Below are positions 11,500 to 61,250 of a DNA stretch of 64,000 bases, piece after piece. Within the stretch, counting starts at the first letter, position 1. The number at the start of each line of letters is the position of its first letter. The notes below the pieces were generated by a model, which made no database searches, was not told the DNA's origin, and saw only the letters and a program-made list of their open reading frames with translations. The stretch spans positions 202,651,013 to 202,715,012 of the forward strand of contig OY755038.1 in assembly GCA_963576565.1 (NCBI GenBank), in the 5' to 3' direction. This DNA comes from Aspidapion aeneum (taxonomy: Eukaryota > Arthropoda > Insecta > Coleoptera > Brentidae). The position numbers and the translations under genes were made by a program.

Positions 11500-12002
11500 C
11501 GAGGGGTGAACAGCTCTCACAATCGGTGTACACATTTCTCACAATCTTTACACAATCCCTCCCAATCACTCACAATCTGTCACAATCTTACCACAATCCT
11601 TCACAATCCCTCACAATCCTTCACCATCCCTCACAATCTTTACACAATCCCTCCCAATCTTACCACAATCCCTCACAATCTTTCACAATCCTTCATCCCA
11701 CAATCCTTCACAATCTTTACACAATCTGTCCCAATCACTCACAATCTTACCACAACCCCTCACAATCTGACCACAGTCTTTCACAATCCCTCGCAAAGGA
11801 ACCTAGAGACATGATGACCTTTTTTTTTGGTCGCAAGAATTTTTGATGGGCTGTCGTCCCCCCGCCCCGTCATGCACGCTACACCGCTGCACAGTCCTCC
11901 ACAATCCCTTACAATCTTACCACAATCCCTCACAATCTTAGCAAAAGATTTGAGGATTTTCACTATCGGTGTACACATTTTGGGTTAGCTTTTCACCCCT
12001 TG
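11500..12002 (+). mobile_element. Decamer-array TIR element, copy 1
   Basis: The left end is CGAGGGGTGAACAGCT and the right end is AGCTTTTCACCCCTTG, inverted copies of each other. The flanks GTTCTGCC (11492-11499) and ATTCTGCC (12003-12010) are an 8-bp target duplication with one mismatch. A TGTACACATTT motif lies near both ends. The centre is an array of CACAATCCCT-type 10-bp units, interrupted at about 11800-11896 by a segment with the GACC-T-run-GGTC module and a C run. No transposase is present. Open frames across the array come from the repeat, not from a gene. Confidence 0.85.
11515..11798. repeat. CACAATCYYT decamer array
   Basis: About 25-28 units of a degenerate 10-bp motif (CACAATCCCT, CACAATCTTA, CCCAATCACT), mostly in strict 10-bp register with occasional 1-2 base slips. 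A few further units follow the inserted segment at 11896-11942. Confidence 0.9.
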
Positions 12003-12010
12003 ATTCTGCC

Positions 12011-12769
12011 CGAATATGGAAGGCAGGTAACTAGCAAAAAAAACAAAATACGTTTTTTGTTACCTACCAGTTAACCAGCCAGTTAATCTTAAATTATTTT
12101 ATATTTTGCGCCCACATTCCACCTAAAAGAAGTAATTTAATAATTTTCTCGAAAAACTAAACCTTTGCTAGGTAGATTTTCCATAAATTTGTTAATTTGC
12201 GGATTCCATCTTTCTCTATAGTGGGCAGAATTAATTTTAACCAAGCAAAGCACACGCATGCATATGCATGTGCAAGGGATGCGGACCTAACACGTGATGC
12301 CTCCTTGTTCTGTCTCTCTCATTCTTACAGCGCCAGCGGTCTGCAGAATCAAACTTCTGTCAAAAATCCAAAAATGCTTAGCCTTTTTTTATCCCAATAG
12401 CCATAATAGAAATAAATCACACCGCCCTCTACAAAATTCTTATGGAACAGCTATAAGGAAAATATTAGATAAGAAATGCGCGATAATGCAGTATATGCAA
12501 TTAATATTTCTTACGACGTATTTAGAATAAAAATTAATGAAAAAATGCTTAATATGGATATTTTTGTTGAATATGTCATGAGGTTCAAGTTACTTAAAAT
12601 ATGATGATGTGAAAAAAAAGTGTTTTAAATTTTATCTCTCTTTTTATATTTTCCATATGGGCACGTTACTAAAACTTAACCTCAGTCTTTATCTAACCTA
12701 AATTCAAAACGTCAGTGTGATACTTATGGTTGTATAGCTACTGTAAATTTTTTAACTCAACGAATCAGT
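12011..12769. other. No gene recognised
   Basis: The sequence is AT-rich. Short frames at 12197-12530 show no similarity I recognise and lie in sequence without splice or promoter signals that would support them. Confidence 0.5.
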
Positions 12770-12912
12770 CAGTTTTTACAACTTTTAAAGAAAATTATTT
12801 CAACAAGAATGCCTTGCCGAGTTGATTTCGGTTTTCGGTAATGAAGCACCACATCACTCGACAGTTTCTCGCTGGTATATGGAGAATTCAAGCGTGGACG
12901 GATTACCCTTAG

Positions 12913-13158
12913 TGCATTGGCGGTGCGTGTTGTAAAACTTTGGGGGAGCACACCCAAAAAAAAATTGCGGCGTAAGCGAAAAATTTTTGTAGTGCCATGC
13001 CCAACTTTTTGGGCCATCGAGTAACTACGAAATCAGAACAATACGGCCCGACCGATAACGCTAAGGGCACTAATTTAAGGTGCACGTAAGCTAGTTTTAA
13101 GTAAAATTTGGGAGTGCACAAGTATATGTACACTTATGGAGGAACCTGCCTGCCTTAG
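12913..13158. mobile_element. About 240-bp insertion in mariner with CCTTAG TSD
   Basis: The mariner reading frame leaves off after CCTTAG (12907-12912) and resumes after a second CCTTAG (13153-13158), so the intervening DNA is an insertion with a 6-bp target duplication. The insert has no recognised coding sequence and no strong terminal inverted repeat. Confidence 0.65.
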
Positions 13159-13888
13159 CCACGATCCAAGGCCAGGGCACCAAAACCGGCTGTTACCCAC
13201 GAAAACATCGATGCTGTGCGCATGCTTATCACGGAAGATCGACATGTGACATATCGCGAGATTGAGGCTTCATTGGGGATTTCAAAGACCTCAATTATTC
13301 AAAGAGATTTGCATGAAGAATTAGAGGTAAGAAAATTAGTTTCCCGCCGGATATCTGTTAATCGAAGACAGAAAGTGAGGCAGAGAACTCCAAAAACGTG
13401 TACAGCATTGTCAGTGGCGATAAATCATGGATTTACCCGAACCGAACCGAACCGTCAGTGTTTGGGTGTTCCAAGATGAAGAAAAGCCAACAAACGTCAT
13501 CCGTTCTCGAAGTGTATCCAAAAATCGCGACATTTGCTTCAAAAGCAGGTCATGTTGCAACAATTCCTCTGAAAGATCAAATGACTGTTACTGCCGATTG
13601 CTACATCACCATTTGTTTGCCGAAAGTCATCGCTGAGCTTCGAAAAACGAACCCCAAACGACGAATCATGCTCTACCAAGAAAATGCAAGTTCGCACAAA
13701 GCACAAAAAACCATTGAATTTTTAACCCAACAAAACGTCGAATTGTTGGACCATCCTCCATACAGTCCCGATTTAAGTCCCAAGATTTCTATACATTTCC
13801 GAAAATCAAGAATGGGCTACGTGGTCAAAGGTTTCAGTTGCCAGAGGAAGCAGTCGACGCCTTCAAGAATGTAATTTTGACAGTAACG

Positions 13889-14481
13889 CGGGGTCTACAC
13901 AACGTTTTGCCTGACGTTTTACTTGATCAGGTAAAACGGATCAGGCAAAACCTTTTGTGTAGACAATAAAACGTACTAGGACTGAAGTCGGACCTGTTGA
14001 ACTGATCGGTAGAGGCTTTGTTTCCGGTAAAACGTCAGTTTTAGCGGCATTTCTTGTGGTAGTGCATACAATTATAATTCCTTTCGAGTGCAACTTAGAA
14101 GTTGGTATACGAACCGTCCGACATTAGATAAGATACTTTTCCTCCCTCCACTAATTTTTAATATGTTTTAAACAAATAGTCCCGACATGTTTCGTAAGCA
14201 GAAACTTACATCTTCAGGGGACATTATCAAACTAAATCAGCACAACATTTTGAAAAACTGGTTAAAAAACTATGTTTAGCTACTGAAACGGTTAAGTCAT
14301 AGACATTTAAAACAAAAAACATTATTGACAAAAGCAGTGCTTCCTCCATGGTGTATCAAAAACTGATCTAAAAACGTACGTTAAAACTATCAAGTGTGTA
14401 CGCTAGTCTTTCAACTGTCATACTTGACCCTTTTGACTGACAGGCAAGACGTAAAGTAAAATGATATGTCTAGACCGGGCT
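13889..14481. mobile_element. 593-bp insertion in mariner flanked by TAACG
   Basis: The mariner reading frame stops at TAACG (13884-13888) and resumes at TAACG (14482-14486). The ends are imperfect inverted repeats (GGTCTACACA and TGTCTAGACC). The first 80 bases fold on their own into a hairpin (GTCTACACAACGTTTTGCC with its complement near 13945-13968). A phrase about 14180-14220 (CCCGACATGTTTCG ... CATCTTCAGGGG) is a word I have seen in dispersed insect repeats. No transposase is present. Confidence 0.65.
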
Positions 14482-14600
14482 TAACGAGTGAAAGCTTTGA
14501 CAACTGGTTTGAGCGCGTGGAGAATAGTTCTAGAAACAATAAAGTCTTTAAAAGTTATCTACTATTTTATTCCTGCTGTATATACAAAACTTAAATGACA

Positions 14601-15022: not shown

Positions 15023-15046
15023 CAACTACCCGAGGGGTCATCAGCT

Positions 15047-15467
15047 TTCAACAGTACTGTACAAATTTCACAACAGGACCCGACAGTATCACGACAGGAC
15101 CCAACAGTACTCGACAGTACACGACAGTACCCAACAGTACTCGACAGTACCCAACAGTACTCGACAGTACACGACAGTACCCAACAGTACACGACAGTAC
15201 CTAACAGTACTCAACAGGACCCAACACTACTCGACAGTACCCAACAGTACTCAACAGTACACGACAGGACCCAACAGTACTCGACAGTACCCCACACCCA
15301 ACAGTACTCGACAGTACCCAACAGTACTCAACAGTACACGACAGGACCCAACAGTACTCGACAGTACACGACAGTACCCAACAGTACTGAACAGGACCCA
15401 ACAGTACTCGACAGTACACGACAGTACCCAACAGTACTCAACAGGACCCAACAGTACTCGACACTAC
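15047..15467. repeat. ACAGTACYCR decamer array
   Basis: About 40 units of 10 bp, chiefly ACAGTACTCG, ACAGTACCCA, ACAGTACACG and ACAGGACCCA, often alternating so that a 20-bp dimer is visible. The array continues after the insert at 15797-15960. The ACAGGAC form links this array to those of copies 3, 4 and 5. Confidence 0.92.
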
Positions 15468-15796
15468 CATGGGCGCACCCAGGGGGGGCCCCGGGGTCCG
15501 GGCCCCCCACAAGCCTTAGATTTTTTAATATATTCTACATACTTGATGATTAAACATGAAAAATACCTTAAAATTTGACACCAGGAGGCTTCGGGCCCCC
15601 CTCGCAACTACCCCAAGCAGTGGCGTAGTTGCAAAAAGACATGATGACCTTTTTTTTTGGTGGCAACTTTTTTGAGGGCGCGCTTTGTAGCTGTCGGGCC
15701 CCCCCACACATGATGACCTTGTTTTTTTTTTGTTTTTTTTTTGTTCTTCTTCGTAGCTGTCGGGCCCCCCCAAGACACATTCCTGGGTGCGCTACT
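15468..15796. mobile_element. GC-rich element nested in the decamer array
   Basis: The ends GGGCGCACCCAGG and CCTGGGTGCGC are inverted, and GACACTAC occurs at both junctions (15460-15467, 15797-15804) as an 8-bp duplication, as for hAT elements. It contains long G and C runs, a CAGTGGCGTAG word at 15617, and two copies of a module ATGATGACC-T-run followed by GTAGCTGTCGGGCCCCCC (about 15640-15702 and 15709-15770). Confidence 0.75.
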
Positions 15797-16013
15797 GACA
15801 CTACACGACAGGACCCAACAGTACACGACAGTACTCAACAGGACCCAACAGTACACGACAGTACTCAACAGGACCCAACAGTACTCGACAGGACCCAACA
15901 GTACTCGACAGTACCCAACAGTACTCAACAGGACCCAACAGTACACGACAGGACCCAAGTCCTGTTGGACGCTGTACAAAATTTTAGGGTGCCGATGACC
16001 CCTCGCAACTACC

Positions 16014-16736
16014 CCAAACATTTTACGATGGGAAACAAGCCCCCGCCAGGGAGGCCCCCTCCTTAAACGTGCTTTTTGGTAGTATTTTGCTAATAATCAT
16101 TTTTCTAGCTCACACAGCAATGGCTAGATAAGATATGACTTTCGACGACAAAACAAATTTTTTTTTTTAATAACGCCGAAAATGTGATATTTGGGTCTAT
16201 TTTGACCTGTCTTAGCAATATTATTCGTGATGTCTGTCATTTTGGGTCGCGGATTTTACACTTTGTTACCGTTATTGTTATTACTGAGTCTGCGCACTAA
16301 CAGCTTCTCGCTCCTTTTCGTTATTTACGGTAACGGTGCCCGTTACTTACGGTGGGCGTCCTTTAATGTTACCGTTATTTTTTAAGGTAAGTTTTGTATT
16401 GTTTTTTTAATGCTGTTGAATTTTTCGTAGTTCGAAGTTCGGTAGTTTGGTTGTGTGCTAATAGGCTAGCATGAATCAGATCCGTCACGGATCCATTTTT
16501 TCAGTACCAAAAAAGGGTAAATTTTTATTATTTCTTGTGGTATCCGTTCTTTATCCTCGTTTGGGTGTCCTTTGTACTCCTTAGCTGCCAAGCTTAAGGC
16601 GGGCAATTAGGACACCTGAAGGAGGTAAAAGGAATTAAGCTCTCAATTTAAAAAAGTCATTTTGAAATACAGTAAATCCATCATAAAACGGCACCGACTG
16701 ACTTCTACTTACAATTCACAATCAACGCTTCTAGTA
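16014..16736. repeat. Fragments of a dispersed repeat, no gene
   Basis: The piece near 16105 (CTAGCTCACACAGCAATGGCTAG) resembles 4378-4400, and 16470-16500 resembles the ends of the 4.7- and 31.9-kb repeats. The rest, including CGGTAACGG words near 16267-16390, shows no gene. Confidence 0.45.
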
Positions 16737-25971: not shown

Positions 25972-26440
25972 GCGTTTTTGACACACATCCGATTTGGATG
26001 ATATTTGGTACACACATAGTGGTCCCATGACAATACAACATTAAGAAAAAAATATGACACCCTTCCCATTATCCGATTTGGATGAAATTTGGTATACATA
26101 TAGTGGTCCGATGACAAAACAACATTGAAAAAAAAATCCTACCACTCCTACCCCCACCCCCATCTATAGAAAAATGCGTTTTTGACACACTTCCCATTAT
26201 CCGATTTGGATGAAATTTGGTATACATATAGTGGTCCGATAACAATACAACAATAATGAAAAAATGTCCTCCCACCCCTACCCCCACCCCATTCCATAAA
26301 AAATGCGTTTTTGACACACTTCACTTCAAATGACTTTTATAAAATTTGGTATATGCATAAAGGTCCGATGGCAATGCAGCCCAAACAAAAAATATATTTC
26401 TACCTCTACCCCCACCCTCTCCTTCCCCTAATAGAAAAAT
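25972..26440. repeat. Degenerate tandem repeat, about 82-131 bp spacing, four units
   Basis: The phrase CCGATTTGGATGAAATTTGG begins at about 25989, 26071 and 26199, with a decayed fourth near 26330. Each is followed by AGTGGTCCGATGACAA-type text and, in later units, a CTACCCCCACCCC run. The repeat phrase is related in wording to 56565-56600, a style common in dispersed insect repeats. Confidence 0.75.
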
Positions 26441-42028: not shown

Positions 42029-42196
42029 CAGTCGAACCTCTCTAACTCGAACCTCTATAACTCGAACCTTTTAAGTGGTCCCTGCACTTTTTGTATGTAT
42101 TATAACCCCTTTAACTCGAATTTCTATAACTCGAACTCTCTATAACTCGAACTGTTTTGGTTGTCCCTTGAAGTTCGAGTTATAGAGGTTCGACTG
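42029..42196. mobile_element. 168-bp TA-flanked element, CAGTCGAACCTC family copy 1
   Basis: Terminal repeats CAGTCGAACCTC and GAGGTTCGACTG with TA on both sides. TATAACTCGAA recurs several times inside. The same family recurs at 45135-45289. Such ends are typical of pogo-like non-autonomous elements. Confidence 0.8.
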
Positions 42197-42339
42197 TAAT
42201 ATGTTACATCCTAAAAAGTATGTATGTATTTTTAAGCCGTTTTTGCGTACAGTTTTCACTGAAGATTTAAGATGACCGTGAATGAGCCACCTGTATTAAA
42301 ATTCACGAGCCACCACAGCACTGCAGACTGATATTATGT

Positions 42340-42744
42340 CGAGGGGTGATCAGCTGCCCACAGTAGGTGTACACATTTTTCTAGAGGACCTCACAGGACT
42401 TACACAGGAATCCACAGGACTATACAGGACTTCCACAGGAACCCACAGGACTTCCACAGGACTTTACAGGACTCCACAGGACTATACAGGACCCTGAGGG
42501 TACTGGCGCCTAAGGGGGGCCCTAGGCATGATTTTGTACTGAGGCCACGCGATTTAAGATGTGATGACCTTTTTTTTTTGGTCACGAATTTTTTTATGTG
42601 CACCTTTTCAGCCACAGGGCTATACAGGGCTCCACAGGCAGGACTATACAGTGTACAGGATTTATACAGGACTATACAGGACACTACAGGACCAAAAATT
42701 TATGTAGGACGGTGTACAAATTTGGTTCAGCTGATCACCCCTCG
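42340..42744 (+). mobile_element. Decamer-array TIR element, copy 3
   Basis: The ends CGAGGGGTGATCAGCTG and CAGCTGATCACCCCTCG are perfect 17-bp inverted repeats with a perfect 8-bp duplication TATTATGT (42332-42339, 42745-42752). Just inside are GTGTACACATTT and, inverted, AATTTATG...GGTGTACAAATTT. The array unit is ACAGGACTNN (ACAGGACTTC, ACAGGACTAT, ACAGGACCCT). It is split at about 42490-42610 by a segment with TGGCGCCTAAGGGG, a GACC-T11-GGTC module and TTTCAGCCACAGG. Confidence 0.9.
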
Positions 42745-42752
42745 TATTATGT

Positions 42753-44726: not shown

Positions 44727-44734
44727 TAGGGACC

Positions 44735-45120
44735 CGAGGGTGATCAGCTGAACCAAATTTGTACGCCGTCCTACAGGACTTTAATAAATTTTTGGTCCTG
44801 TAGTGTCCTGTATAGTCCTGTACAAGTCCTGTATAGCCTTGCCTGTATGGTCCTGTGGCTGAAGAAGGCGCCCATAAAAAAATTCACGACCAAAAAAAAA
44901 AAGTCATCACTCTCGTTTTTCTTAGAGGGCCGATTTGCCTTTGCCGGCCTTAGTACTTAAACATGCTTAGGGCACCCCTTAGGCGCCAGTACCCTCGGGG
45001 TCCTGTAGAGTCCTGTGGAGTCCTGTACATGTCCTGTATAGTCCTGTACAGTCCTGTATAGTCCTGTGGGGTCCTGTAGAAAAATTTGTACACCTACTGT
45101 GGGCAGCTGATCACCCCTCG
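44735..45120 (-). mobile_element. Decamer-array TIR element, copy 4
   Basis: The ends CGAGGGTGATCAGCTG and CAGCTGATCACCCCTCG are inverted. The flanks TAGGGACC (44727-44734) and TAGAGACC (45121-45128) are an 8-bp duplication with one mismatch. Read on the minus strand, it has the same parts as copy 3 in the same order: ACAGGACTNN units, the junction GAGGGTACTGGCGCC, a C/G-rich segment, a GACT-T-run-GGTC module, and CAGCCACAGGACC. Copies 3 and 4 therefore descend from one master that already contained the inner segment. Confidence 0.9.
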
Positions 45121-45134
45121 TAGAGACCCATATA

Positions 45135-45289
45135 CAGTCGAACCTCTATAACTCGAACCTTTTAAGTGGTCTCTGCAGTTTTTTAACCTCTTTAACTCGA
45201 ATTTCTATAACTCGAACTCCCCATAACTCGAATTGTTTTGGTTGTTCCTTTGAGTTCGAGTTATAGAAGTTCGACCTCGAGTTCGACTG
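45135..45289. mobile_element. 155-bp TA-flanked element, CAGTCGAACCTC family copy 2
   Basis: Terminal repeats CAGTCGAACCTC and GAGTTCGACTG with TA on both sides. It aligns with 42029-42196 through most of its length (AACCTTTTAAGTGGT, TTTAACTCGAATTTC). The right end has a small duplication of the GTTCGA word. Confidence 0.8.
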
Positions 45290-45327: not shown

Positions 45328-46145
45328 CAGTATGGTTAAAAGCTATAGGATTCATAGACTGCTTGCTGTGCGACATGTGTGTAAGAGAGAAGTAAAAGAG
45401 AAAAATCTATTTTGGGCGGTGTCTTGAAATATATTTCGCTGTTTTAGACCCGTATTGGGGCTGGTAGTGGGAAAGTAGGGGAGTACATCGTGACCTCGTC
45501 TTCACGAAGTTTTTCGTCATTCCGTCGTGTGAAGCGAAACAGGTGCGAAGTGGGTATTTGTTTTTCACGTAAATTCTAGCTCAATCCATGCCGCGTATTA
45601 CATATAGCGTTCAGGAACAAGTACAGATGGTTCAATGGTATTTCGGAGGAAATATCTTTCAAGATGTAGCAAATTTATTTGTTGTCGTGTTTGAGGGAAG
45701 GGATATTCCAAGCTATAGTACGTTCCAAAAAACAATCGACGTCATAAATTTCCTCTCTCTACTTTATCGGGGCGCACAGACAACAGGTATTGGCTGAAAC
45801 AATGGGCGTAACGTGTAAATGTCTATCCTTTTTTCTTACATACTACATATTGTATGTATCTGCAGTTGTTCTTATCTTATATACAGTAATAATTTCCCAT
45901 GAATCCTATAGCACTTAACCATGCTGTACACAGGATTTTTAGGAATGTGTAGTAAAAACATGCCTCCCTCGACTTTACCGGGGCGCACAGACGACAGGTA
46001 TTGGCTATTCTGAAACAATGGGCGTAACCACGTGTAAATTTCTATCCTTTTTTCTTACATACTACATATAGTATGCATATGCAGTTGTTCTTATCTTACA
46101 TACAGTAATAATTTCCCATAATTCCTATAGCACTTAACCATGCTG
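45328..46145 (+). mobile_element. TA-flanked DNA element with duplicated right end
   Basis: The left end CAGTATGGTTAAAAGCTATAG pairs with a right end CTATAGCACTTAACCATGCTG that occurs twice, ending at 45926 and at 46145, each followed by TA. The two right ends belong to a tandem duplication of about 214 bp (45750-45962 and 45963-46177; CGGGGCGCACAGAC, TTTCTTACATACTACATAT). It contains a short helix-turn-helix ORF. TA duplication points to the Tc1/mariner group broadly. Confidence 0.7.
45588..45797 (+). pseudogene. Transposase N-terminal helix-turn-helix remnant
   Basis: An ATG opens 69 codons. Residues 1-47 (ITYSVQEQVQMVQWYFGG, then VANLFVVVFEGRDIPSYSTF) resemble the N-terminal helix-turn-helix (DUF4817-like) of insect mariner-related transposases, which binds the element ends. 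After about residue 50 the similarity stops, and the frame ends in the tandemly duplicated segment. The linker and DDE catalytic domain are missing, so the element depends on a transposase made elsewhere. Confidence 0.6.
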
Positions 46146-46438
46146 TATACAGGATCTCTAGGAATGTGTAGTAAAACATATCTTGGAATTGTTTGAAATT
46201 CTAGCTGTGTTGAAAAAAATCATTGTTATAAATATAAATTTAAATTAGATAGATAAATATATGTCAAAATGAGGTCTGAAGTGAGCATTCTACAATGTAA
46301 CGTTATTATTAACATTCATTTGTAATAAATATGTGTGTTTGTTTTGCACAATCGAGCTTTCATTCTGTTGAGTATAAATATGCATTATAAACCCACAAAC
46401 AGATAGGGCGCTCTATGGGGAACTGTTTAATTCTTTTA

Positions 46439-47862: not shown

Positions 47863-47866
47863 CGCG

Positions 47867-48083
47867 AGTAATATCCCTGGAATAATAACATCTCATCTTG
47901 TTTGTAATAACAAATATATTGCTGACGCCGTACATTGAAGTTTATATATGCACCCAAATGGTCTAATTAGGCATCATTATACTTTTACAAGTTGTATTGG
48001 TCACTTTAGTTATAAGTATTTTTTGTAGTCTTTTCAAATAAAAAGTTTTTTAAAAGCTACGTCACCGGACTTCGTATTTAATT
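47867..48083 (+). repeat. 5' LTR
   Basis: 217 bp, AGTAAT...TTAATT. An AATAAA polyadenylation signal lies at 48037-48042. No good TATA box is visible, as is common in this group; TCACTTTAGT at 48001 is a possible initiator. It differs from the 3' LTR only at 48070. Confidence 0.95.
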
Positions 48084-48100
48084 GGCGCTGCGAACAGGAT
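48083..48100 (+). promoter_or_regulatory. Primer-binding site
   Basis: TGGCGCTGCGAACAGGAT begins at the last LTR base. The TGG start pairs with a tRNA CCA end, and the TGGCGC beginning is usual in errantiviruses, which mostly use tRNA-Ser or tRNA-Lys. I cannot match the remaining bases to a particular tRNA with confidence. Confidence 0.8.
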
Positions 48101-48432: not shown

Positions 48433-48461
48433 ATGGATTTATCCTCGATTGTTATGTAAGT
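48433..48461 (+). promoter_or_regulatory. Leader mini-exon start and splice donor for env mRNA
   Basis: An ATG at 48433 opens seven full codons plus two bases before a strong donor GTAAGT (48456-48461). Unspliced, this mini-frame ends at once in TAA (48457-48459), upstream of gag. Spliced to the acceptor at 52418/52419 it stays in frame with env and adds a hydrophobic start. Errantivirus env is known to be made from a spliced mRNA, so the role is well founded, but the exact sites are inferred from sequence. Confidence 0.65.
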
Positions 48462-48477
48462 TTTTTTGACTTTCTTG

Positions 48478-50109
48478 ATGCCTAGGCGATTAAAGAATAT
48501 TTTAGAAAAGAACAAAACAAAACTAGGATTAGGAGCAGAAAATAAGAAAGAAAACGTTAAAACTGAAATTGAAAACTATCTAGCAAGTTTGAAGAAACCG
48601 TCTTTAAATTTAAATTTTGAGCAAATAAGTAGTTTGCAAAGTAGTTTAAGAAATTTAAGTGGTCAGTCGACATCGAGACTAGACACTCAACAGCAATTAG
48701 AAAGTATAGAAGAAAATACTGAAAATAATTTAGAAAATAGATTTTTAGAAAATTTTGATTCTTTAAATTTTGCAAATTTAAACACTAGTTTTAACAGTAG
48801 TTTAAGTAGCGTTAGTAGTAACCAATTAGATAACACTTTACAAAACGAAGAACTTTCTAACACAATGGAAAATCTTAAATTTTACACGTCATTGTTGCCC
48901 ACATTTGATGGCAGTCAATCCCATTTAGAAAGTTTTTTGATTTCTGTACAAGAATTTTATGAACTTTATTTTGGTAATTCTATTGAGCAACAAAAATTGG
49001 TCCTGTCTGCCATAAAATCGAAACTGGTAGGCAAAGCTCAAAATTTTCTATTAGAAAGGCCAGATTTAAATACTTTTGAAAAAATTAAGTTAGCTTTAAG
49101 ACAAAAATTTGGTGATCCAATTAATCACGAAATTTTGATGCAAGAACTTCAGTACATTAAAATTGACGCAAACGAAGACATTTTGCAGTTTATCGATAGA
49201 CTTAAGGCCTTTTGCCAAAGAATTTTTGGAAAAATTCAATGTGAAGTAGCAGATAACGCACAAAAGTTACTGCTTATATCTCAAGTAGAAAAAGTATCTG
49301 TTTTAATTTTGACCGCAAACTCCCCAGACTCTTTAAAAACGCTTCTTATGCTTAAAACTCCTGCAACTTTAGACGAAGCCTACAAGGACGTCATGAGTAA
49401 TAACATAGTAGAAGCGCAAGTCAATTTTACAAGTAATAACTCGAACTTGCACAAAGGAAATAATTCATTTTTAAAACCCAACAATAACTTTAGACAAAAC
49501 CAAAATTTTAATCGCAACCCCCAAACTAATCAAATAAGACCAAAACCACCCCAACAACGTTTTAACCCGTTTATGCAACCTTTTTCGAACCCTCAGTTTA
49601 CCAGACAATTTAATTTTAATCCACCTTTTAACTCTCAATTTAGACAACCTAACTTTAATTTTAATCAACCTAGACCTTTTCAAAATCAACCTCAAAATTT
49701 TCAAAATTTTGGAAGACCAACTAACGCCTTCGCCCCACAAAATAAACCCATTTTAGACAAGCCAACCCCTATGTCGACATCAACAATTGGTCCGTCAAGG
49801 CAACACTATCAAAGACCCCCATACAATCGACCTTCAGGAATTTTTAAACCCTCAGGATTTTTGACAAATGTAGAAACATACCCAGAACAAACTTACGAAC
49901 AAAACTACGAACAAACCTACGAACAAACCTGTGAAAATCAAACTTACAATAATTATAGTGAAGAAAACCCTGACTATTTTTACGATCCTCATTTTTATAA
50001 CGAAGAACCCACTAGCCAACAAGAAAACTGCTCTTACGAACATAATTTACAAACAAACGCCGCAAGCGAAAATTTTCAGGAAACAGCCTTGGATCCCCCG
50101 TCGACTTAA
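48478..50109 (+). CDS. gag: Gag-like structural polyprotein
   Basis: A 543-residue open frame starts at the first ATG (48478); the open frame extends four codons upstream only through a non-ATG codon. Residues 1-135 are polar and Asn/Ser/Leu-rich with coiled-coil-like stretches. About 136-330 resemble the errantivirus capsid region (LPTFDGSQSHLESFL, then LRQKFGDPINHEILMQELQY and ILQFIDRLKAFCQRI). About 335-470 are rich in Asn, Gln, Phe, Pro and Arg with no CCHC zinc knuckle, as usual in this group, and probably bind RNA. The last 70 residues include a short YEQTYEQ repeat and are acidic. The role is assembly of the cytoplasmic particle that packages element RNA. The frame is intact, with no internal stop, and overlaps pol in the -1 frame. 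It is A-rich in codon use like the rest of the element. Confidence 0.9.
   Translation: MPRRLKNILEKNKTKLGLGAENKKENVKTEIENYLASLKKPSLNLNFEQISSLQSSLRNLSGQSTSRLDTQQQLESIEENTENNLENRFLENFDSLNFANLNTSFNSSLSSVSSNQLDNTLQNEELSNTMENLKFYTSLLPTFDGSQSHLESFLISVQEFYELYFGNSIEQQKLVLSAIKSKLVGKAQNFLLERPDLNTFEKIKLALRQKFGDPINHEILMQELQYIKIDANEDILQFIDRLKAFCQRIFGKIQCEVADNAQKLLLISQVEKVSVLILTANSPDSLKTLLMLKTPATLDEAYKDVMSNNIVEAQVNFTSNNSNLHKGNNSFLKPNNNFRQNQNFNRNPQTNQIRPKPPQQRFNPFMQPFSNPQFTRQFNFNPPFNSQFRQPNFNFNQPRPFQNQPQNFQNFGRPTNAFAPQNKPILDKPTPMSTSTIGPSRQHYQRPPYNRPSGIFKPSGFLTNVETYPEQTYEQNYEQTYEQTCENQTYNNYSEENPDYFYDPHFYNEEPTSQQENCSYEHNLQTNAASENFQETALDPPST
50070..50076 (+). promoter_or_regulatory. Probable -1 ribosomal frameshift site
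   Basis: AAATTTT lies in gag phase as A-AAT-TTT, a valid X-XXY-YYZ slippery heptamer, inside the 64-base gag/pol overlap (50046-50109). Slipping back one base enters the pol frame upstream of the protease. A downstream RNA structure was not evaluated. Confidence 0.65.
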
Positions 50110-51812
50110 ATAACGTTGCCCGACAAATCGAACTACCATATTTTTATTTACCAAAAACGCAAATAACAATTCTTATCGATTCAGGAGCCTCAGACTCTAT
50201 AATCTCCCCAAAAATAGCCAAAATGTACCCCAATAATCTATTTTTTGAACCCTTTGAAGTAACCAGCTGCAGAAACACATATAAAGAAAATAATAATTTA
50301 AAAATAAATTTATTACAAGAACTAGGAATAAACGAAAATATTAAAATGCGTGTTGTAAACTGGCATAAAGACTTTGACGCATTAATAGGCTTAAGAGACC
50401 TTGAAAAGTTAAAGGGTATGCTCGATTTAAAAAATAGTATATTAACTTTAAATAAAAATGTAAAAATTCCTCTTTCTATTGCTTATAATAACCCTGTTAA
50501 GCAGCCAATCCAAAATTATCAAGTAAACTACCAAAAAGATATTGAACTCACACCCTCTTTTAGCTTCAAAGAACAATACATTCCTAACTGTCCAGTAACA
50601 GTTAAAGAATTTTGTAAAATCCCCTATCCAAGTCCAAACGTTAACATTAACTTTCACCAACAAATAAAAGTAATCCCACAAGAAAGATTTAAGAAACAAC
50701 CTATTCAATATTTTCACCCTGAAACACAATTAAAATCAGACTACATCATAACACCGGAAGGTACTGAACCAAATTTAATAAAAATCGACTGCATTCAACG
50801 GTACTTAATTCCAGAAACTCAAAAAGATACAAATTACGAAAAAGAAAATGTAAATGTCGTTGCTAACGCCCTCTTGAAGATAAATTTTAACATACATGAA
50901 ATAAATAAAGCCAATGCACCCACCGTGCGTAACTCTGTTACCAACTTAACCGATTTTAATCTCACGGAACACGTAATTAACGAGCAATACAAAGAACCCC
51001 AAGCTAATGTAACCGTACTCAATGAAAAATTAAAACCGCCAAAAATGAATTTAGAGTATTTTGTGCCCCTCCAAAATGACGCCCGAGACAACGCCTCTGA
51101 CGTCACTATTCACTCAAATAATGAGACACAAAGAAAACATTTATCTACATCCGAACTGCCCCTTAATTATACAACCAATCGATTGGTTATTAATTATGGA
51201 CAACAATATAAACATTTTTTCTCTAAACCATTTAATAGAAATCATAATTTTGTGACAATAAATGAAAAACAACAAGAGCACATTCTTAAAATTCTAAAAG
51301 AGATAGTGAAACCTGACTCTCTATTTACTATTTACATTCCAAACAATGAACTTAAACTAGAATTTCAGAAAGTAGTTAACTCTATTTTTAACCCATGTGC
51401 AAAACTCATATTTTCGACTAAATACCTAATTGACGTGATAAACGCAGAAAAACAAAAAGAATTAATATTAAAATACTATGGACCTAATCATAAAAACAAA
51501 ACAGAGATCTTCAATGAAATAAAACAAAAATATTACTGGCCCAAACTAAGAGAATCGATTACCATCTTCATAAACAACTTTAAAATATGTCTTCAAAACT
51601 CATATAAAAAGCATTCTTATAAAATTGCTTATAAAGGACCCCTTTTAGATGAAAAACCATTTAAAACATTTGTATCATTTAGACATCTTTCAATTTATAA
51701 ACTGTCAATTTTGAACTTAAATAGATTTGTTTCAAAATACACAAAAAATTTTATAACGATTTTTGAAAACCACTTTTCTTATAAGAACACAAAAAAAATA
51801 AACAAAAGATAA
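50077..51812 (+). pseudogene. pol: Pol remnant: protease kept, RT/RNase H deleted, integrase start decayed
   Basis: The frame is open from 50046 to the stop at 51810-51812 (about 578 codons after the frameshift site; full pol is about 1000-1100). In order it has an aspartic protease with an intact DSGAS active site (50178 on) and ALIGLRDL; an unrecognised stretch; a piece of the RT thumb (TPEGTEPNLIKIDCIQRYLI, about 50753); and, directly after it, the tail of RNase H (NVVANALLKINFN). The RT palm with its Asp-Asp box and most of RNase H are absent. Near the end is an integrase zinc-binding region (YGPNHKNK ... KYYWPKLRE ... NFKIC) that lacks one of the two histidines and one of the two cysteines. 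The start of the catalytic core has lost its acidic residue. Losses are large, yet the frame stays open. Confidence 0.85.
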
Positions 51813-52013
51813 TAAAATAAACAATAAAATAAAAATAAAAAAAAAAGATAACAAAATTGATAACAACCTTTTAAAATATTTATGTCAAATATTCTGCAAC
51901 GAACAACTTTCTCTAGACTACACATTTTGAATATTTAAGAAATTTAAAAATTTAAACATCTTGAAGAAACTTCTCAAAATATTATGACGTCAGCCATACT
52001 AATATATACTTAA
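51813..52013 (+). pseudogene. Decayed integrase core region
   Basis: A very A-rich stretch with stops in all frames, including TAA at 52011 in pol phase. It lies where the integrase catalytic domain should be. Only loose hints of integrase text remain (from about 51960), so most of the D,D-35-E core is deleted. Confidence 0.6.
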
Positions 52014-52478
52014 TCAGAGAGTACACTCTATTACCGATCATTTTTAATTTTCAATTTTATACAGCCTTATGTGAACAAACCAAACATAAATAACGACCTC
52101 ACTCTTTTTGAACAATATAATGAACAACGAAAGAAAGAACTAATACCTTTTCACGATCAAGTTTTCAAAAAAGCATATCAAAAACAGTTACACACCACAC
52201 AAAAACAAAATAAAAACACCGAAGAGCCCCCTCAAATTCAAAAAGATCAAACTATCTTTAGAAAAAACACCCTTCGAAATAAAATGAACCCCCAATTTAT
52301 CCCTACCAAAGTAACTAACGTCAATAAAAATGTTATAACTGGTATCTCAAAAACTAAACCAATTAACACACATGTCAGAAAAATAAAAAGACTCAGAAAA
52401 AAACCTAAATCATTCCAGGTTCCTGATCCTGTCCCTCCTGACATTGACGAACCTCAACCAGGCCCTTCAGGTCAATAG
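52014..52478 (+). pseudogene. Integrase C-terminal remnant, in pol phase
   Basis: Reopening in the same phase as pol, 155 codons read from about SESTLYY through PNINNDLTLFEQYNEQRKKE, then TKVTNVNKNVITGISK and RKIKRLRKK, to an acidic-proline end (VPDPVPPDIDEPQPGPSG). The order fits the end of integrase and its C-terminal DNA-binding domain in insect errantiviruses. It could be mistaken for a separate small gene, but no ATG begins it, the phase equals that of pol, and the env frame overlaps its last 60 bases in another phase. The call of integrase C-terminus is inference from layout and wording. Confidence 0.6.
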
Positions 52479-53991
52479 ATTGGACAATAATGGATTCTAC
52501 ACCGAAGAAATCTCTCCTTCTTTAGTTGTAAGCCATTATCATACTATGTACATACCTTTTAATATGACAAAAATTAAAACGTCTCTAAGCCAACTTTTTA
52601 CTACTAATTCCCTATTTTTATCCCCTTTAGTCAATCAAGTTAATAATACTTTATTAAAAATACAATTTCAATTCCTTGAATCATGCTTAAACGATACGTA
52701 CAATACTTATGAAAAACTAAATTCTTTAGAAAACAATGAACTTAGAAAGAAACGTGGTTTATTCAACCTACTGGGAAGCGGTATTAAATTTGTCACAGGA
52801 AACCTAGATAATACCGACCTAGACACAATAACGCAGAACTTACAAATACTGAAACAAAATCAAATTAACACGATGCACAAGATAAATGACCTTAGTTCAT
52901 TTGCCGGGAATATTATAAACAAATTCCAGGAAAATGTAAACATTATAAATAAAAACGCAAAATGCATTCGCTTCGAAATTTTAAAATTGAATAATGAAAT
53001 CACGTTATTACTCAGTATGCAAAACCAAATTTTACAAATCTCAAAACTAAACAAATTTTTGGAAAAAATGCTGAGAATGATATCTTTTGCGCATCTGCAA
53101 ACTTTAGATTTAGAAATTTTGAATGTCAATGAAATTAGGGAAATTTGGCAATATTTGACAGCTCATTATCCAAAAAATTCTCTATGGCCACTAAAACACC
53201 TGTCAGAATTAACTCTTATATGTAAAACTGGCCTTATTCTGTTAAAAGATATGTCAATCATTGTAGTGAAAATACCAATCTTTGAAAAATATTCTTGTAG
53301 TCTTAAGATAGTTTATCCAATACCTAATAATGAATCAAAAATATTAATTAGCCCCAGTAAATACTATTGTAACAATTTATGGTATCAGCAATGCTCTGAA
53401 ATTAACTCAAATTGGATTTGTTTCAACCCCATTGCATATAGTTGCCTTTTACCAAAAAATTGCCCTTTCGCCACAGTAAAAAAAAATAATTTTCAAATTC
53501 ACACTTTAACTTATAAAAGTGGTCTACTTTTCTGTACAAAAAACACCGAAACAATTTACGAAAATTGCTTCCAGTTTCAGAAAACCACACTTCAAAACTG
53601 TTATCTTATTAACAGCCAGTGTGACATAATAATTAATCAAAATAAATATTCATTATCAATAAATAACATTTCTGTTTCATTGCCAGATATAATAAAGCTT
53701 CCTGAAACAAACTTGTCTATCAATTTGCAGATAAGACATTTAGAAAACCCGCAAAAAATGCAGGAAGACCTTTTGGATCCTTTAGTCCTACAGGAACTTA
53801 ATTTTGAAAGCCAAAATTACATTATCTTAACTTTATGTTTGGCAGTAATCTTGATATTTATTTTTATTTTCTATTTTTGGCGAAAACAAAAAACCTCAAA
53901 GACAAAAAATATTCCCTTAAGGGTTCTCCAAAAACTCATCAACGAGGACGTTGACGAAACTAAGGGTGGAGGAGTAATATCCCTGGAATAA
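52419..53991 (+). CDS. env: Env: baculovirus F-like fusion glycoprotein, expressed by splicing
   Basis: The open frame runs from an AG|G splice acceptor (after 52418) to the stop inside the 3' LTR (53989-53991). It has no ATG until 52546, so initiation must come from the leader mini-exon (ATG 48433). That exon, together with the first codons after the acceptor, gives a hydrophobic secretion signal. Features in order are a cleavage site RKKR (about 52750) followed by a GLFNLLGSG-type fusion peptide, a long heptad-like helical region (about 52810-53060), a cysteine-rich ectodomain with several Asn-X-Ser/Thr sites, a membrane anchor (about 53820-53880) and a basic cytoplasmic tail. This is the layout of insect errantivirus Env, which derives from baculovirus F proteins and mediates membrane fusion. 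The frame is intact. Confidence 0.88.
53962..53972 (+). promoter_or_regulatory. Polypurine tract
   Basis: AAGGGTGGAGG lies directly against the 3' LTR, where plus-strand DNA synthesis is primed. It is also coding sequence of env, as is usual in the group. Confidence 0.9.
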
Positions 53992-54189
53992 TAACATCTC
54001 ATCTTGTTTGTAATAACAAATATATTGCTGACGCCGTACATTGAAGTTTATATATGCACCCAAATGGTCTAATTAGGCATCATTATACTTTTACAAGTTG
54101 TATTGGTCACTTTAGTTATAAGTATTTTTTGTAGTCTTTTCAAATAAAAAGTTTTTTAAAAGCTACGTCACCGGAATTCGTATTTAATT
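53973..54189 (+). repeat. 3' LTR
   Basis: 217 bp, identical to the 5' LTR except A at 54176. AATAAA at 54143-54148. The first 19 bases encode the end of env. Confidence 0.95.
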
Positions 54190-54193
54190 CGCG

Positions 54194-55060: not shown

Positions 55061-55069
55061 AGTGTAGAC

Positions 55070-56100: not shown

Positions 56101-56485
56101 TAATTATTTATGGGCAGCTTTGCCAATATATGGGCAGCGAAGCTCACACTAGGTGCTACATATATAGTGTATGTGTGAGCTAATATAACTAAAAACTGAA
56201 ATATATTTTATTCAACTCCAGACTCAATTTTTCAACCTTTCGTTTGATACGACACAAGCCATGTTTTGACTTTTGGAAATCTACCCCCAGCCTTTTATTT
56301 GCCTGTGGATTTTGTTTATTAGCTCACACATATACTATACTATAGTAGTGTGAGCTATGGTGATCCTAATTTTTTCGAGAAAAAAAAAGTTGCTCCGATT
56401 TCAAAAATTTTTATATATCTTTGCGTTTCAGATGATTTTGAAACTTTTTTGTTGCGCCGTCTGTCTGTCTGTCTGTCTGTCTGTA

Positions 56486-56528
<43 letters not shown>

Positions 56529-57210
56529 ATGTCTGTAACGACCAACGCGCATAACTCAAAAACCGCTTGGCCGATTTTAATGAAATTTGGTACCTAGGCT
56601 GGGTTTTGGGCCGAGATGGTCCCATTTAAAAATGAACAAAATCCACCGAGCACAAACCAAATAAAAGGGTGGGGGTTGATTTCAAAAATTAGAGTTTATG
56701 GAAAAATATGGCGTGTGTGACATCAAACGAAAGGTAATTGAGTCTGGAGTTCAACAAAAAACATTTTAATTTATTTAAAAAAAAAGGGTGGGGGTATATT
56801 TCAAAAATTAGAGTTTAAGTGAAAAAATGGCGTGTGTGATATCAAACGAAAGGTAATTGAGTCCGGAGTTTAACAAAATACATTTTAGTTTTTGTTTTTT
56901 TAAGGGTGGGGGTAGATTTCAAAAATTTGAGTTTAAGTGAAAACATGGCTTGTGTGGTATCAAACAAAAGGTAATTTAGTCCGGAGTTGAATAAAATATA
57001 TTTTAGTTTTTATTTATATTAGCTCACACGTACACTATAACTATAGTACCTAGTGTGAGCTTAGGGGCCCATATATTGGCAGAGTATTTTTAAATGAGAC
57101 TATCTCGACCCAAGACGTAGCCTAGGTACCAAATTTCATTTAAATCGGGCAAGCGGTTTTGGAGTTATGCGGGTTGGTCGTTACAGACAGACAGACAGAC
57201 AATTTCTCTA
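56101..57210. repeat. Inverted-repeat complex with CTGT microsatellite and 119-bp triplicate
   Basis: Three AGCTCACAC...GTGTGAGCT hairpins lie at about 56139-56182, 56320-56357 and 57021-57061. A (CTGT)n tract is at 56458-56537, with its complement (CAGA)n at 57184-57202. The phrases next to them (ACCGCTTGGCCGATTTTAATG against CATTTAAATCGGGCAAGCGG) are inverted copies. Between them a 119-bp unit (AAGGGTGGGGGT, GGCGTGTGTGA, CAAACGAAAGGTAATT) stands three times in tandem, starting at about 56664, 56783 and 56902. A fourth, inverted copy lies at about 56195-56300. Confidence 0.8.
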
Positions 57211-57975: not shown

Positions 57976-58541
57976 TAGGGACTTATTGGAATAAAACCTG
58001 ACTTTATTTTAAAGTCGGCTTTATTCTGACAGATTTACAAGGAAAACTGAGCTGACCTCTCAAAATTGACATACCAAAGACAAATTTTTAAACAAAGTCG
58101 CTAACTTTCATTTAATAAAAACACTAGACACTAATAAATCCGGTTCTTAAATACCCAAAGACCGAATTTTAAAAGAGAGCAGCTGCTTTTTATATGTAAA
58201 TCTGTCACAATACTGTCGCTTTTAAAATAAGGTCAGGTTTTATTCCAATAAGTCCCTATTAGACACTTATTGGAATAAAACCTAACCTTATTTTAAAGTC
58301 GACCTTATGGTGACAGATTTACATATAAAAAGCAGCTGCTCTCCTTCAAAATTCGGCCATTGTGTATTATAAAACCGGATTTATTAGTGTCGGTATTTAT
58401 TAATTGAAAGTTAGCGACTTTATTATTAAATTTGGCTTTGGTATGTCAATTTTGAGAGGTCAGCTGTTAGTTTTCTGTGTAAATGTGTCAGAATAAAGTC
58501 GCCTCTAAAATAAAGTCAGGTTTTATTCCATTAAGTCCCTA
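57976..58541. mobile_element. 565-bp palindrome made of two head-to-head copies of one short element
   Basis: Each half (57976-58257 and 58260-58541) begins and ends with inverted forms of TAGGGACTTATTGGAATAAA, so each is a complete short inverted-repeat element. The second half is the reverse complement of the first along nearly its whole length (GACCTCTCAAAATTGACATA, AGTCGCTAACTTTCA, GAGCAGCTGCTTTTTATATG). A solitary end of the family lies at 23355. No coding capacity. Confidence 0.85.
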
Positions 58542-58861
58542 TTGTTTCATTTTAAAACTGAACAAATAAAATTTGCCTACCTATATAATATTATTAATAC
58601 GTAAAACATTTTCGATATTATATATTTATTATACTAAATTTAATAACTTTTATGATATATAAAACTCATTCGATTCGAAAATGTAAATTTTATTGAGGCG
58701 TAAATTAGTAATCAAAATCAAAGTTAAAATTTTATACAGCCGGGAGTAGGCCGTAAACGAAAATAATGATTTTCACACAATGAACGATGAAAATCGAAAT
58801 TTAATTTTATTTTCAATACCAATTTTACTTTTTAGTTGAGTGGCTTTTAGTCAAAAATTCG

Positions 58862-59485
58862 TGTTCCGTGGGATAGTTGAGGAATATTTTTTAAAACTAA
58901 CCCTGGATCGATTGGTAATAGATCACACAATTTTTAATCACCATGTGTTTGTCTCCAGTTTAAGTAGAAAGGCCTGTGTAATCCAAGATGCCGGCTTTTT
59001 TCATGTTTTTTAACAAACTTTGACTTATTAAGTTTTGCAAAATAAATTTTACAGAAAAGCTGTGAATACGTTTTTCGTGTGCAATAGAACAACAATTAAG
59101 GTAGTAGAGAATTATCTTTATCTTAGAAGCTAACAAAGATATTAATTATTTTTCAAAATACAAAAACTAGTAAGTTTTGTTACCCAAAAAAAATTAATAT
59201 CTTTGATAGTTTTTAAGATATGAAGCTAATTCCTTTACTATCTTATTTGTTTGTTTTCTTGCAAACAAAAAACGCATTGGTAGTCTTTCTGTAAAATTAA
59301 TTTTGCAAAAGTTGTAAGCCAGTTTGTAAAAAAAAACATGAAAAAAGCCGCCATGTTAGATTTCTGACGTCACATCGACCCGCCTACCCAAATTAGAGGC
59401 CCGGTGCCTTAAAATTGTGTAATCTATTACCTATTGATCTTGTAGTTTAAAAAATCTTCCACATTTATCCCACGGGATACCTTAG
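58862..59485. mobile_element. Fold-back element, about 620 bp
   Basis: The outer ends (CCGTGGGATAGTTGAGGAA and the complement of TTCCACATTTATCCCACGGG) and the inner arms (GGCTTTTTTCATGTTTTTTA at 58992, its complement near 59330) are inverted repeats. The pairing continues over most of the element (TTAATATCTTTG with CAAAGATATTAA). No target duplication was secure. Confidence 0.65.
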
Positions 59486-60697
59486 GCCTCTCAACTATTT
59501 TGTGTATTTGTGGCGTACGTCCAAAATATTATAGCCTATTGTTCGGACTTTAAAATAAAACAGGCTATTCCAAAATAAGTGTCCACACAAAAAAAATGCT
59601 GGGTTGATTTTACTAAAAATATTGGCTCATCATTAATTTGCCAAAAATAGTTGATTTGGCTACAAACTCATTGTTTTAACATAAAGATTTATAGTTGTTT
59701 TACCAATTATATTATGGTATAACATCTTAAACTAACTTTAATCATCACATTGGGTTAATCTAACTACTATTTTGTAGCTTATTCTTTAAATTGTAGTTTA
59801 ATGAATCTACTAAAATAGCTGTATACACGGTAAACATTTTTGTCTACAATGAAAAAACGTTCTTTTCTTGAATAAATTGTTTTACCTTAAAACAATTTGT
59901 TTTAAATTAAAATATTTGTTTTTAGTTCAACGCAGCGTTTAATCTTGAAATGAGACTTTATTTTTCTTCTTTGATTGTTTTGTTTCATACTAAATTTTGC
60001 AACAAAGCAAATTGTCTTCATATAAGTAATATTTTGCTTTCAGAGAAAACTGTACCTTAGAATAATTCAGTTCCAATTTATAAAACAATGTCTGTTTCAC
60101 CTTAAAATAAAGAGGTGAATAGGAAAGCACAAATTATTTTACTTCAAAGCAATTTGCTTTGATCTAAGACAATGTTTTCTACCTTGTAGTCTTTTGACTA
60201 TTTCCTAGCAATATCCGTGTTATTTTATTGTATACTTTTGTGTTAGGATACTTACTGAGACTGGTTATATCTATTTCCATAGTGACGTCACATCATTTTC
60301 ATGACTCTTTTTCAGATATCACCACTTATTTCTTCTCTATCCCATGGTTACGCTCGAATAGGGTGTTTGACAGTAGTAAAAAATAAATATATATTTATTT
60401 TTAGATATCTCTTTAGGTCTTGGGAATGCTAAAAACAAACTTTTTTGTTTAATTTTTTCTCAAATTCATAGTTCTTTTAATTAAATAAATTCATTGAATT
60501 AAAACAATTGCCACGTGATTCAAAACAGGCGGTCTACCAATCAGCTGCGAGTGACGTCACAAAACAGTAAACGCCTCGAACGAACCTATTTTCTGTGTTA
60601 TTTTCTTATGGAAGGAAATGTTTGCTTTGGTTTAAAGTGCGAATTATCGTCCTAAATTAGATTTTATTTTGTGTTTTGCTTATAAAAAACATTTTCA
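59486..60697. other. AT-rich stretch, no gene supported
   Basis: The part 59840-60190 is a loose pattern of TTGTTTTA and AAAACAATTTG words, similar in style to 28060-28750. A short region before 60698 is less AT-rich and could be a promoter for the small frame that follows, but that is speculative. Confidence 0.45.
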
Positions 60698-60823
60698 ATG
60701 GAAAACGTATTCTCCAAAGCCGATAGCTCCAACTTGCCAATGCTGAATTCCTTTATGGTAGCAGGCTTCTTTGCCAACAACAGTGATTTTGTTCTGCGGA
60801 ATTTAGAAACGTTAAGATGTTGA
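60698..60823 (+). pseudogene. Possible degenerate first exon, 41 codons
   Basis: An ATG opens a short frame whose text (FSKADSSNLPMLNSFMVAGF, then FANNSDFVLRNLETLR) resembles the N-terminus of insect proteins that carry a YqaJ-like nuclease domain, as far as I can recall that family. A TGA stop (60821-60823) comes just before a good splice donor GTAAGT at 60825, so the exon could not read through. Either it is a dead copy or the resemblance is chance. The surrounding GC-richer, unrepeated sequence makes it worth checking. Confidence 0.3.
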
Positions 60824-61001
60824 TGTAAGTATTCGATGAGTTGTTTTGTATATAACTGAAAGTTTTTTTACGATATTCTTCGCCTACTTTTACTCATTTA
60901 GATTTTGAGGTTAAGTTATATGTTTTGCTTTTTTGTTTAATATGCCACTTACAATAGATTCATTATCTGAAAAAAACAAAAATAAAATTCATGTAATAAA
61001 C

Positions 61002-61250
61002 CGAGGGAGGGACAGGTAGGCAAAAAGTATACAACGACCAGCAATACTTGAAGTAAGGCATAGGTTACACTGCATAGTCCTGCGTAGGTACTGCCTAGTC
61101 TTGCATATACACTGCTCAGTCCTACATTTAGCCTGCATGTGCACTGCCTAATCCTGCATTTAGAGGTACCCCCTAGTCCTGCCTAATAACTGCCTAGCAC
61201 CGCCTAAAAATTTGTACACCTTTCTGCCTATTATAGTTGTTCACCCCGTG
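61002..61250 (+). mobile_element. Decamer-array TIR element, copy 5
   Basis: The left end CGAGGGAGGGACAGG and the right end GTTGTTCACCCCGTG are decayed inverted repeats. The flanks TAATAAAC (60994-61001) and CAATAAAC (61251-61258) are an 8-bp duplication with one mismatch. A right subterminal AAATTTGTACACC motif is kept. The array unit is CTGCCTAGTC (complement GACTAGGCAG), clearly related to ACAGGACTNN of copies 3 and 4 when complemented. It is the shortest and oldest-looking copy and has no inserted GACC-GGTC module. Confidence 0.75.

Follow-up and report, generated by a model that had tools for sequence, protein, structure and literature searches.

A large family of non-autonomous elements with arrays of about 10-bp units in the beetle Aspidapion aeneum, possibly mobilised by a hAT transposase

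Results

Five inverted-ended elements in the window

The stretch analysed here (hereafter, the window) is 64,000 bp of the Aspidapion aeneum genome (contig OY755038.1, positions 202,651,013 to 202,715,012; 33.9% G+C). It contains five elements, E1 to E5, each with short inverted ends around a tandem array of units of about 10 bp and each flanked by an 8-bp target site duplication (TSD). They belong to one large family of non-autonomous cut-and-paste DNA transposons, in the class of miniature inverted-repeat transposable elements (MITEs), because inverted ends and TSDs occur together at many independent places of the genome and no transposase gene was seen within E1-E5 (249-975 bp) when their frames were judged by eye, with no Pfam scan. 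An earlier description of this DNA (the original prediction) had proposed five such elements, two with perfect TSDs and three with one mismatch; this was borne out, at the same coordinates.

E1 (11500-12002, plus strand, 503 bp) has the decamer CACAATCYYT in array blocks at about 11536-11796 and 11892-11934; its TSD copies, GTTCTGCC at 11492-11499 and ATTCTGCC at 12003-12010, agree at 7 of 8 positions. E2 (15031-16005, plus strand, 975 bp) is the longest. Its unit reads ACAG[T/G]AC..., the arrays lie at about 15074-15467 and 15797-15960 with a G+C-rich core in between, and the TSD CAACTACC is perfect on both sides (15023-15030 and 16006-16013). E3 (42340-42744, plus strand, 405 bp) has the unit ACAGGACTNN, exact 17-bp ends at both sides, and a perfect TSD, TATTATGT, at 42332-42339 and 42745-42752. 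E4 (44735-45120, minus strand, 386 bp) has the E3 unit and is 74% alike to E3 over nearly its whole length; one G is missing from its low-coordinate end, and its TSD copies, TAGGGACC at 44727-44734 and TAGAGACC at 45121-45128, agree at 7 of 8. E5 (61002-61250, minus strand, 249 bp) has a GCAGGACTA-like unit, which is the other strand of the CTGCCTAGTC given in the original prediction. The low-coordinate end of E5 is badly diverged, and its TSD copies, TAATAAAC at 60994-61001 and CAATAAAC at 61251-61258, again agree at 7 of 8.

When direct repeats of 2-12 bp were tried around E1-E5, at least seven matches were obtained at length 8 only. The chance rate for 7 of 8, estimated from random place pairs in the window, was 0.00107. 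When inverted end pairs in the window were screened under a loose definition (1928 pairs), all of E1-E5 were recovered at 7 or 8 of 8; 23 of the 1928 pairs had at least six TSD matches, and these included chance pairs and one pair built on internal E2 sequence. Frames of at least 120 amino acids across E1-E3 run through the repeats, as judged by eye, and in E4 and E5 every frame is shorter than this. For Rfam, the window gave no family above threshold.

Within the E2 core, 19 bp at 15598-15616 (plus strand) are identical to the right junction of E2 together with its TSD and a few bases beyond (15999-16017). By eye, this stretch is absent from two other E2-type copies that were displayed. It may possibly be the product of a template switch at the site.

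Ends and subterminal motifs

The E ends begin with CGAGGGG, and also with CAAGGGG and CACGGGG. The inverted match comprises a terminal inverted repeat (TIR) of about 17 bp plus a TGTACA box. Two end types are seen: one consists of the TIR, a unit-like stretch and GTGTACA-N-ATTT, and the other of the TIR, a AACCAAATT-type stretch and TGTACACCG. The left and right ends are distinct: when E1-E5 were oriented by array strand, left-left plus right-right scores exceeded left-right plus right-left scores in 10 of 10 pairwise comparisons.

Allowing one mismatch, GTGTACA-N-ATTT is present at 8 of the 10 element ends and at four other places (12 matches in the window, vs 3.19 expected). Subterminal TGTACA-AAT motifs, which had been reported for all five elements, are thus confirmed at these eight ends but not at the E2 right end, where TGTACAAAATT is found, nor at the low-coordinate end of E5, which has GTATACA. 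By eye, the left-end unit resembles the array of its own element (ACAATC in E1, ACAGTAC in E2, CACAGTA in E3 and E4, GCAG in E5). This unit adjoins the TGTACA box, and an inverted unit can also be seen by eye in the right end of several copies.

Array units and the common core

The best array periods of E1 to E5 were 10.35, 10.00, 10.40, 10.20 and 10.60 bp, respectively. Likeness between array units was measured with learned unit profiles against column-shuffled controls (3000 shuffles). The E2/E3, E2/E4 and E3/E4 profiles were closer than the controls (shuffle fractions 0.0053, 0.0003 and 0.0000), and the E5 unit was weakly alike to those of E2, E3 and E4 (0.127, 0.024 and 0.034). A test on consensus strings was too weak for most pairs: E3/E4 was clear (0.0004), E2 against E3, E4 and E5 gave 0.064-0.067, and the rest were at chance level.

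In addition, E1-E4 have in common a non-repetitive core of 40-60 bp, TGATGACC-T(n)-GGTC. It lies at 11807-11852 (plus strand) in E1, at about 15637-15678 in E2, at about 42557-42601 in E3 and at about 44868-44919 (minus strand) in E4; the motif was not found in E5. A 16-base core pattern has seven matches in the window at up to two mismatches (0.39 expected), and the match at 28094 is outside every element described. The original prediction had taken the arrays to be interchangeable sets of different decamers. This is not supported: E2, E3 and E4 have one unit family, to which that of E5 is weakly related, and unrelated interchangeable arrays are rejected for E2-E4 by the unit profiles and for E1-E4 by the common core. 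What is supported is one family of mobile elements with inverted ends and an interior array of about 10-bp period.

Higher-order repeats are also present in E2, with lengths of 20, 30 and 50 bp. In the cores of the E2-type copies at loci L106 and L107, the poly-T motif of the core forms head-to-tail repeats of its own, a second tandem level. A nested MITE inside the E2 core, with the TSD GACACTAC, is a suggestive but doubtful reading, as its left junction has a counterpart in L106 and L107.

Genome-wide family

The assembly (1.286 Gb, 149 contigs) was searched on both strands with the 17-bp end at up to two mismatches, with the reversed pattern as a control. There were 4810 forward and 4762 reverse sites (9572 in total), vs 3 and 7 for the control, and the family extends beyond the window. 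This count takes in E2-type left ends (two mismatches) and leaves out E2-type right ends (four mismatches). At up to three mismatches, the E3/E4-type left end (31 bases) gave 852 + 872 sites and the E2-type left end (38 bases) 778 + 779 sites, with no control site for either.

Forty loci at exact 17-bp ends were fetched, all from contig 1, a sample biased to well-kept ends: 15 were chosen for both ends being exact, and the others came from the first 26 sites in the list that lacked an exact partner, of which 25 were used. With up to five mismatches allowed, an inverted partner was present in 34 of the 40 (15/15 and 19/25). The original prediction had named a lack of target duplications at the ends as the result that would count against it; the ends do carry them, 27 of the 34 paired loci having a TSD at 7 or 8 of 8. 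In the two groups (15 and 19 paired loci), 11 and 9 loci matched at 8/8, 3 and 4 at 7/8, and 1 and 6 at fewer positions.

The 20 perfect TSDs comprise 14 distinct ones. ATCCAAAC or its complement occurs in five loci, and CATATACT and GAGCAAAG in two each; therefore some of the insertions are not independent. L045, L046, L048, L049 and L055, together with the left flank of L069, are very similar copies with the TSD ATCCAAAC or its complement, which suggests a single insertion into a repeat whose copy number rose afterwards.

The 34 paired copies are 118 to 2220 bp long. Minimal copies (L042, L043, L051, L061, L064 and L074; 118-170 bp) have both ends, a few units and TSDs at 7 or 8 of 8, and the long forms have over fifty units. 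Array orientation and spacing were determined in the 27 copies with a TSD at 7 or 8 of 8. In 25 of these, oriented by their ends alone, the units are mostly on the expected strand, and the other two tie, with one unit each way. Reverse units number at most one or two per copy, and both sides of the core run in one direction. A foldback element can therefore be rejected, since the units are unidirectional on both core sides and do not form long inverted repeats. Among 195 distances below 60 bp between ACAGGAC motifs, 90 were 10 bp and 42 were 11 bp (132/195); those of 9-12 bp average 10.36 bp.

Some fetched loci have further features. L059 has a run of repeats of about 21 bp, and L050, L060 and L066 contain other inserts inside the copies. 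L056, L072 and L073 have about 2.5 kb in common (93-94% alike) beside an E-type right end, with other short repeats, and no partner of this end was found within 2.6 kb; they represent either a long variant or an element engulfed by a larger repeat.

Outside this genome, the 17-mer of the end was found in no viral contig and the core pattern had no viral match. A 15-mer of the end occurs in 18 viral contigs and the 17-mer in 9 prokaryote contigs; these 27 loci gave five loose inverted pairs, with a best TSD of 4 of 8.

Movement and turnover

At L107, a complete 960-bp E2-type copy with the TSD AGGAAATT lies inside a hAT copy, and a related hAT copy, L115 (97.4% alike to L107 over 2507 bp), is without it. 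At the empty site in L115 the sequence is AGGAAA-ATAAC-TTAG; this differs by about 5 bp and does not amount to one clean TSD. Three E2-type copies were compared with each other. Identity was 100% and 98.9% over the outer 40 and 62 bp and 73% in the middle (63% with gaps counted), although the alignment of E2-type arrays is uncertain. On a simple reading, the array and core of the E2-type copies would have turned over after a recent spread. The contrast between ends and interior is less marked in ACAGGAC-type copies. Their conservation was measured in 13 copies (12 for the core); one of the five copies with a common TSD was kept, and only lengths of 300-600 bp were used. With gaps counted, the ends were 84 and 80% conserved, vs 68% for the core.

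Element F and the hAT lineages

A sixth, different element, F, is located at 8955-10588 (no strand assigned). It has the TIR TAGGGATGGGC and a perfect TSD, GTTCACAA, at 8947-8954 and 10589-10596. GGAACAG-type subterminal repeats lie near its end, and it has an E-type core motif on the minus strand. Over 76 bp, the right end of F and the 3' ends of the hAT-encoding copies L081, L084 and L083 are 85.5% alike; L114, which is the L081 locus, gives the hAT dimerisation domain PF05699 at 72 bits. By this end, which is held in common at 3' only, F belongs to the hAT superfamily. The other end of these F-like hAT copies was looked for and not found. The copies have GGAACAG repeats in their own end, and therefore a hAT lineage in this genome carries short end repeats.

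hAT elements are abundant here: PF05699 was present in all 150 scored of 3687 first-look candidates. One family has the ends TAGGGGTGGGACAT / TAGTGCTGGGCGAT and perfect 8-bp TSDs (L108, L113). Another has CAGGCCCGTCGCC ends (L097-L103); its 765-amino-acid open frame occurs at seven places, 99.95-100% identical over the compared stretches, a sign of very recent activity. A third has the ends TGGCGTAGCTAGC...GGGGGGGCC (L116 and L117, linked by a common 333-bp stretch). By eye, this last one is like two parts of the E cores, CAGTGGCGTAG and GGGGGGCCC; because of this likeness, a second hAT MITE lineage of the CAGTGGCG type, that of L116/L117, has probably left its remnant in the E core. The hAT loci inspected for E ends are a small part of the 3687 candidates. 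L077 and L080 were considered as autonomous E elements and were rejected, as larger stretches show E2-type copies beside the hAT frames, not around them. These copies are complete (976 and 960 bp), with perfect TSDs of their own.

Other features of the window

Direct repeats of 222 bp at 47866-48087 and 53972-54193 (99.1% identical) flank gag/env-like frames at 48460-53991 and mark a young long terminal repeat (LTR) element. Its env-like frame has 24 relatives, of which the three named ones are from the beetle Hypothenemus hampei (43-51% identity). The window also contains several reverse-transcriptase fragments and a DDE_3 fragment, which we take to be mariner-type. Near E3 and E4, TCTATAACTCGAAC repeats, presumably Tigger/pogo-like, are found at 42047-42194 and 45138-45275 (87% alike). 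Other tandem arrays lie at 26055-26417, 45752-46176 and 56659-57011, with units of 128, 219 and 118 bp, respectively.

Discussion

Proposed mechanism

The E family has the 8-bp TSD of the hAT superfamily, and the most likely source of its mobility is a hAT transposase whose gene lies elsewhere in the genome. The abundance of hAT genes speaks for this, as does F, a similar small element that ends like hAT-encoding copies with short repeats in their own end. Because no autonomous partner with E ends was found, we can only infer hAT membership and a binding role of the unit. Each end, left and right being distinct, is proposed to consist of a TIR of about 16-17 bp, one short unit and a TGTACA-A/C-ATTT box. 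The end-proximal unit probably is, or once was, a transposase-binding site, and the interior array would be this unit amplified through replication slippage, unequal exchange or interrupted gap repair. One orientation and a spacing of 10-10.6 bp would have been kept because helical phasing holds the binding sites on one face of the DNA. At its origin the array was, as we analyse it, most likely a set of amplified binding sites, which may later have been turned over by slippage and unequal exchange. Taken as a whole, the explanation by a hAT-mobilised family with an amplified, phased end-proximal unit is the best we have, and it is put forward tentatively, at slightly less than even confidence.

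There are precedents for a binding role in other elements. In Herves, the transposase binds a short motif within the end and likewise four direct repeats of this motif (PMC3143072). In Hermes, repeats near the tip of the left end are bound, and their exact phasing matters (PMC10368747). The authors of the Tetris study considered that added binding sites may favour expansion (PMC4079207).

Several observations weigh against this explanation. hAT TIRs are usually of the C/T-A-R-R-G kind, and the second base of the E TIR is usually G. The autonomous relative that the original prediction had called for did not come to light: CGAGGGGTGATCAGCTG ends around a transposase open reading frame (ORF) were present in none of 30 hAT loci of 3.2 kb, and no E ends lay around a hAT ORF in ten 9.9-kb regions around ten of those loci or in two 801-bp 3' stretches. 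The E1 unit is indistinguishable from unrelated units (shuffle fractions 0.30-0.57), and the repeats of F have a weak 10-bp periodicity (autocorrelation 0.24-0.33). With gaps set aside, end conservation in ACAGGAC-type copies is no better than that of the core (86 and 88% vs 87%). In Hermes, only some repeats near one tip are bound and the right-end repeats are unbound, and support from extra transposases bound deeper in the ends is considered unlikely (PMC10368747).

Alternative explanations

The array might instead be a passive passenger, namely a repeat prone to slippage that a MITE picked up once; it would then play no part in transposition, and its period of about 10 bp would be an accident. 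Other MITEs are known to carry tandem repeats along in this way (PMC9659126, PMC12628747). The higher-order repeats of E2 and the run in L059 look like the outcome of slippage or unequal exchange, and the Hermes findings count against a role of deeper sites (PMC10368747). If the array were a passenger, the fixed period and strand would have to be accidents of descent from one founder. This is possible for the E3/E4 type and less so for the divergent E1 and E5; moreover, the period stays at 10.0-10.6 bp across divergent units, the orientation is fixed, and a unit that by eye is like the array of the same element lies within the end itself. A passenger array seems rather unlikely.

Mutator-like elements (MULEs) as a superfamily have TSDs of 8-10 bp and typically TIRs over 100 bp. 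The window elements fit TSDs of 8 bp only, their TIRs are about 17 bp, and their array is unidirectional and not inverted at both ends, points that are not decisive. MULEs are present in this genome (66 matches to the domain PF10551), and mosquito MULEs have much the same build, which tells against hAT ownership: all 14 MULE families of Aedes have 8-9 bp TSDs, 10 of the 12 with long TIRs have subterminal tandem repeats of 9-15 bp, and 2 of the 14 have TIRs under 60 bp (PMC5225508). On balance, we regard a MULE origin as unlikely. P elements also have an 8-bp TSD, and the E family could in principle be a Galileo-like element of the P superfamily with tandem repeats that bind a THAP domain. Internal tandem repeats with extra transposase-binding sites have been described in that superfamily (PMC4079207). 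We consider this very improbable.

Returning to amplified binding sites, a further and quite doubtful proposal is that the decamer array is a helically phased platform for loading the transposase. Copies would compete for the transposase by adding sites along one face of the DNA, and the units of subfamilies would change with the end unit as the DNA-binding domain of the transposase changes. If this were true, the arrays would preserve, like fossils, how the specificity of the transposase has changed within one genome.

Comparison with known systems

A 16-base stretch of the E end, in both orientations, had no match in the literature searched, with subscription papers and Repbase outside its scope, and the available part of a weevil genome paper held nothing on such arrays (PMC8576890). 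The remark in the original prediction that it knew of no described family like this was nevertheless too strong, as publications describe tandem repeats inside MITEs (PMC9659126, PMC12628747) and, in insects, transposons that combine TSDs of 8-9 bp with subterminal tandem repeats of 9-15 bp (PMC5225508). For the satellites that the family was suggested to generate, the evidence goes as far as copies that carry arrays. Why transposons grow internal tandem repeats, and whether such repeats seed satellites, is debated from few cases. The E family seems to be a good test ground, with its 9572 end sites, forms from minimal to over fifty units, unit-like ends, and at least two high-copy subfamilies with different units in one genome.

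Muta1 and other Aedes aegypti MULEs are like the E family in their 8-9 bp TSDs, 9-15 bp subterminal tandem repeats, many non-autonomous derivatives and variable repeat number. They differ in that most have long TIRs and the repeats lie within both of these inverted ends (PMC5225508), whereas the E family has TIRs of about 17 bp and repeats in one direction at a spacing of about 10.4 bp. Herves and Hermes likewise have short end motifs, which their transposases bind, and left and right ends that differ; however, their motifs are few and scattered, in contrast to the arrays of tens of units in the E family (PMC3143072, PMC10368747), and the deeper sites of Hermes appear to be without importance (PMC10368747). 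In the Drosophila foldback elements Tetris and Galileo, internal tandem repeats are derived from terminal sequence and an expansion of binding sites has been proposed, but the units are 220 bp long and lie inside long inverted repeats (PMC4079207). The MITEs Xstir and miDNA4 resemble the E family in being non-autonomous, with TIRs and tandem arrays, and are possible satellite seeds; miDNA4 is a Tc1/mariner element, the units of both are other than the E units, and helical phasing is not mentioned in the available parts of these reports (PMC9659126, PMC12628747). Tandem repeats in MITEs are already known, as are transposons whose subterminal repeats measure 9-15 bp, and what is less usual in the E family is the near-helical period across diverged units, together with the likeness between the end unit and the array unit.

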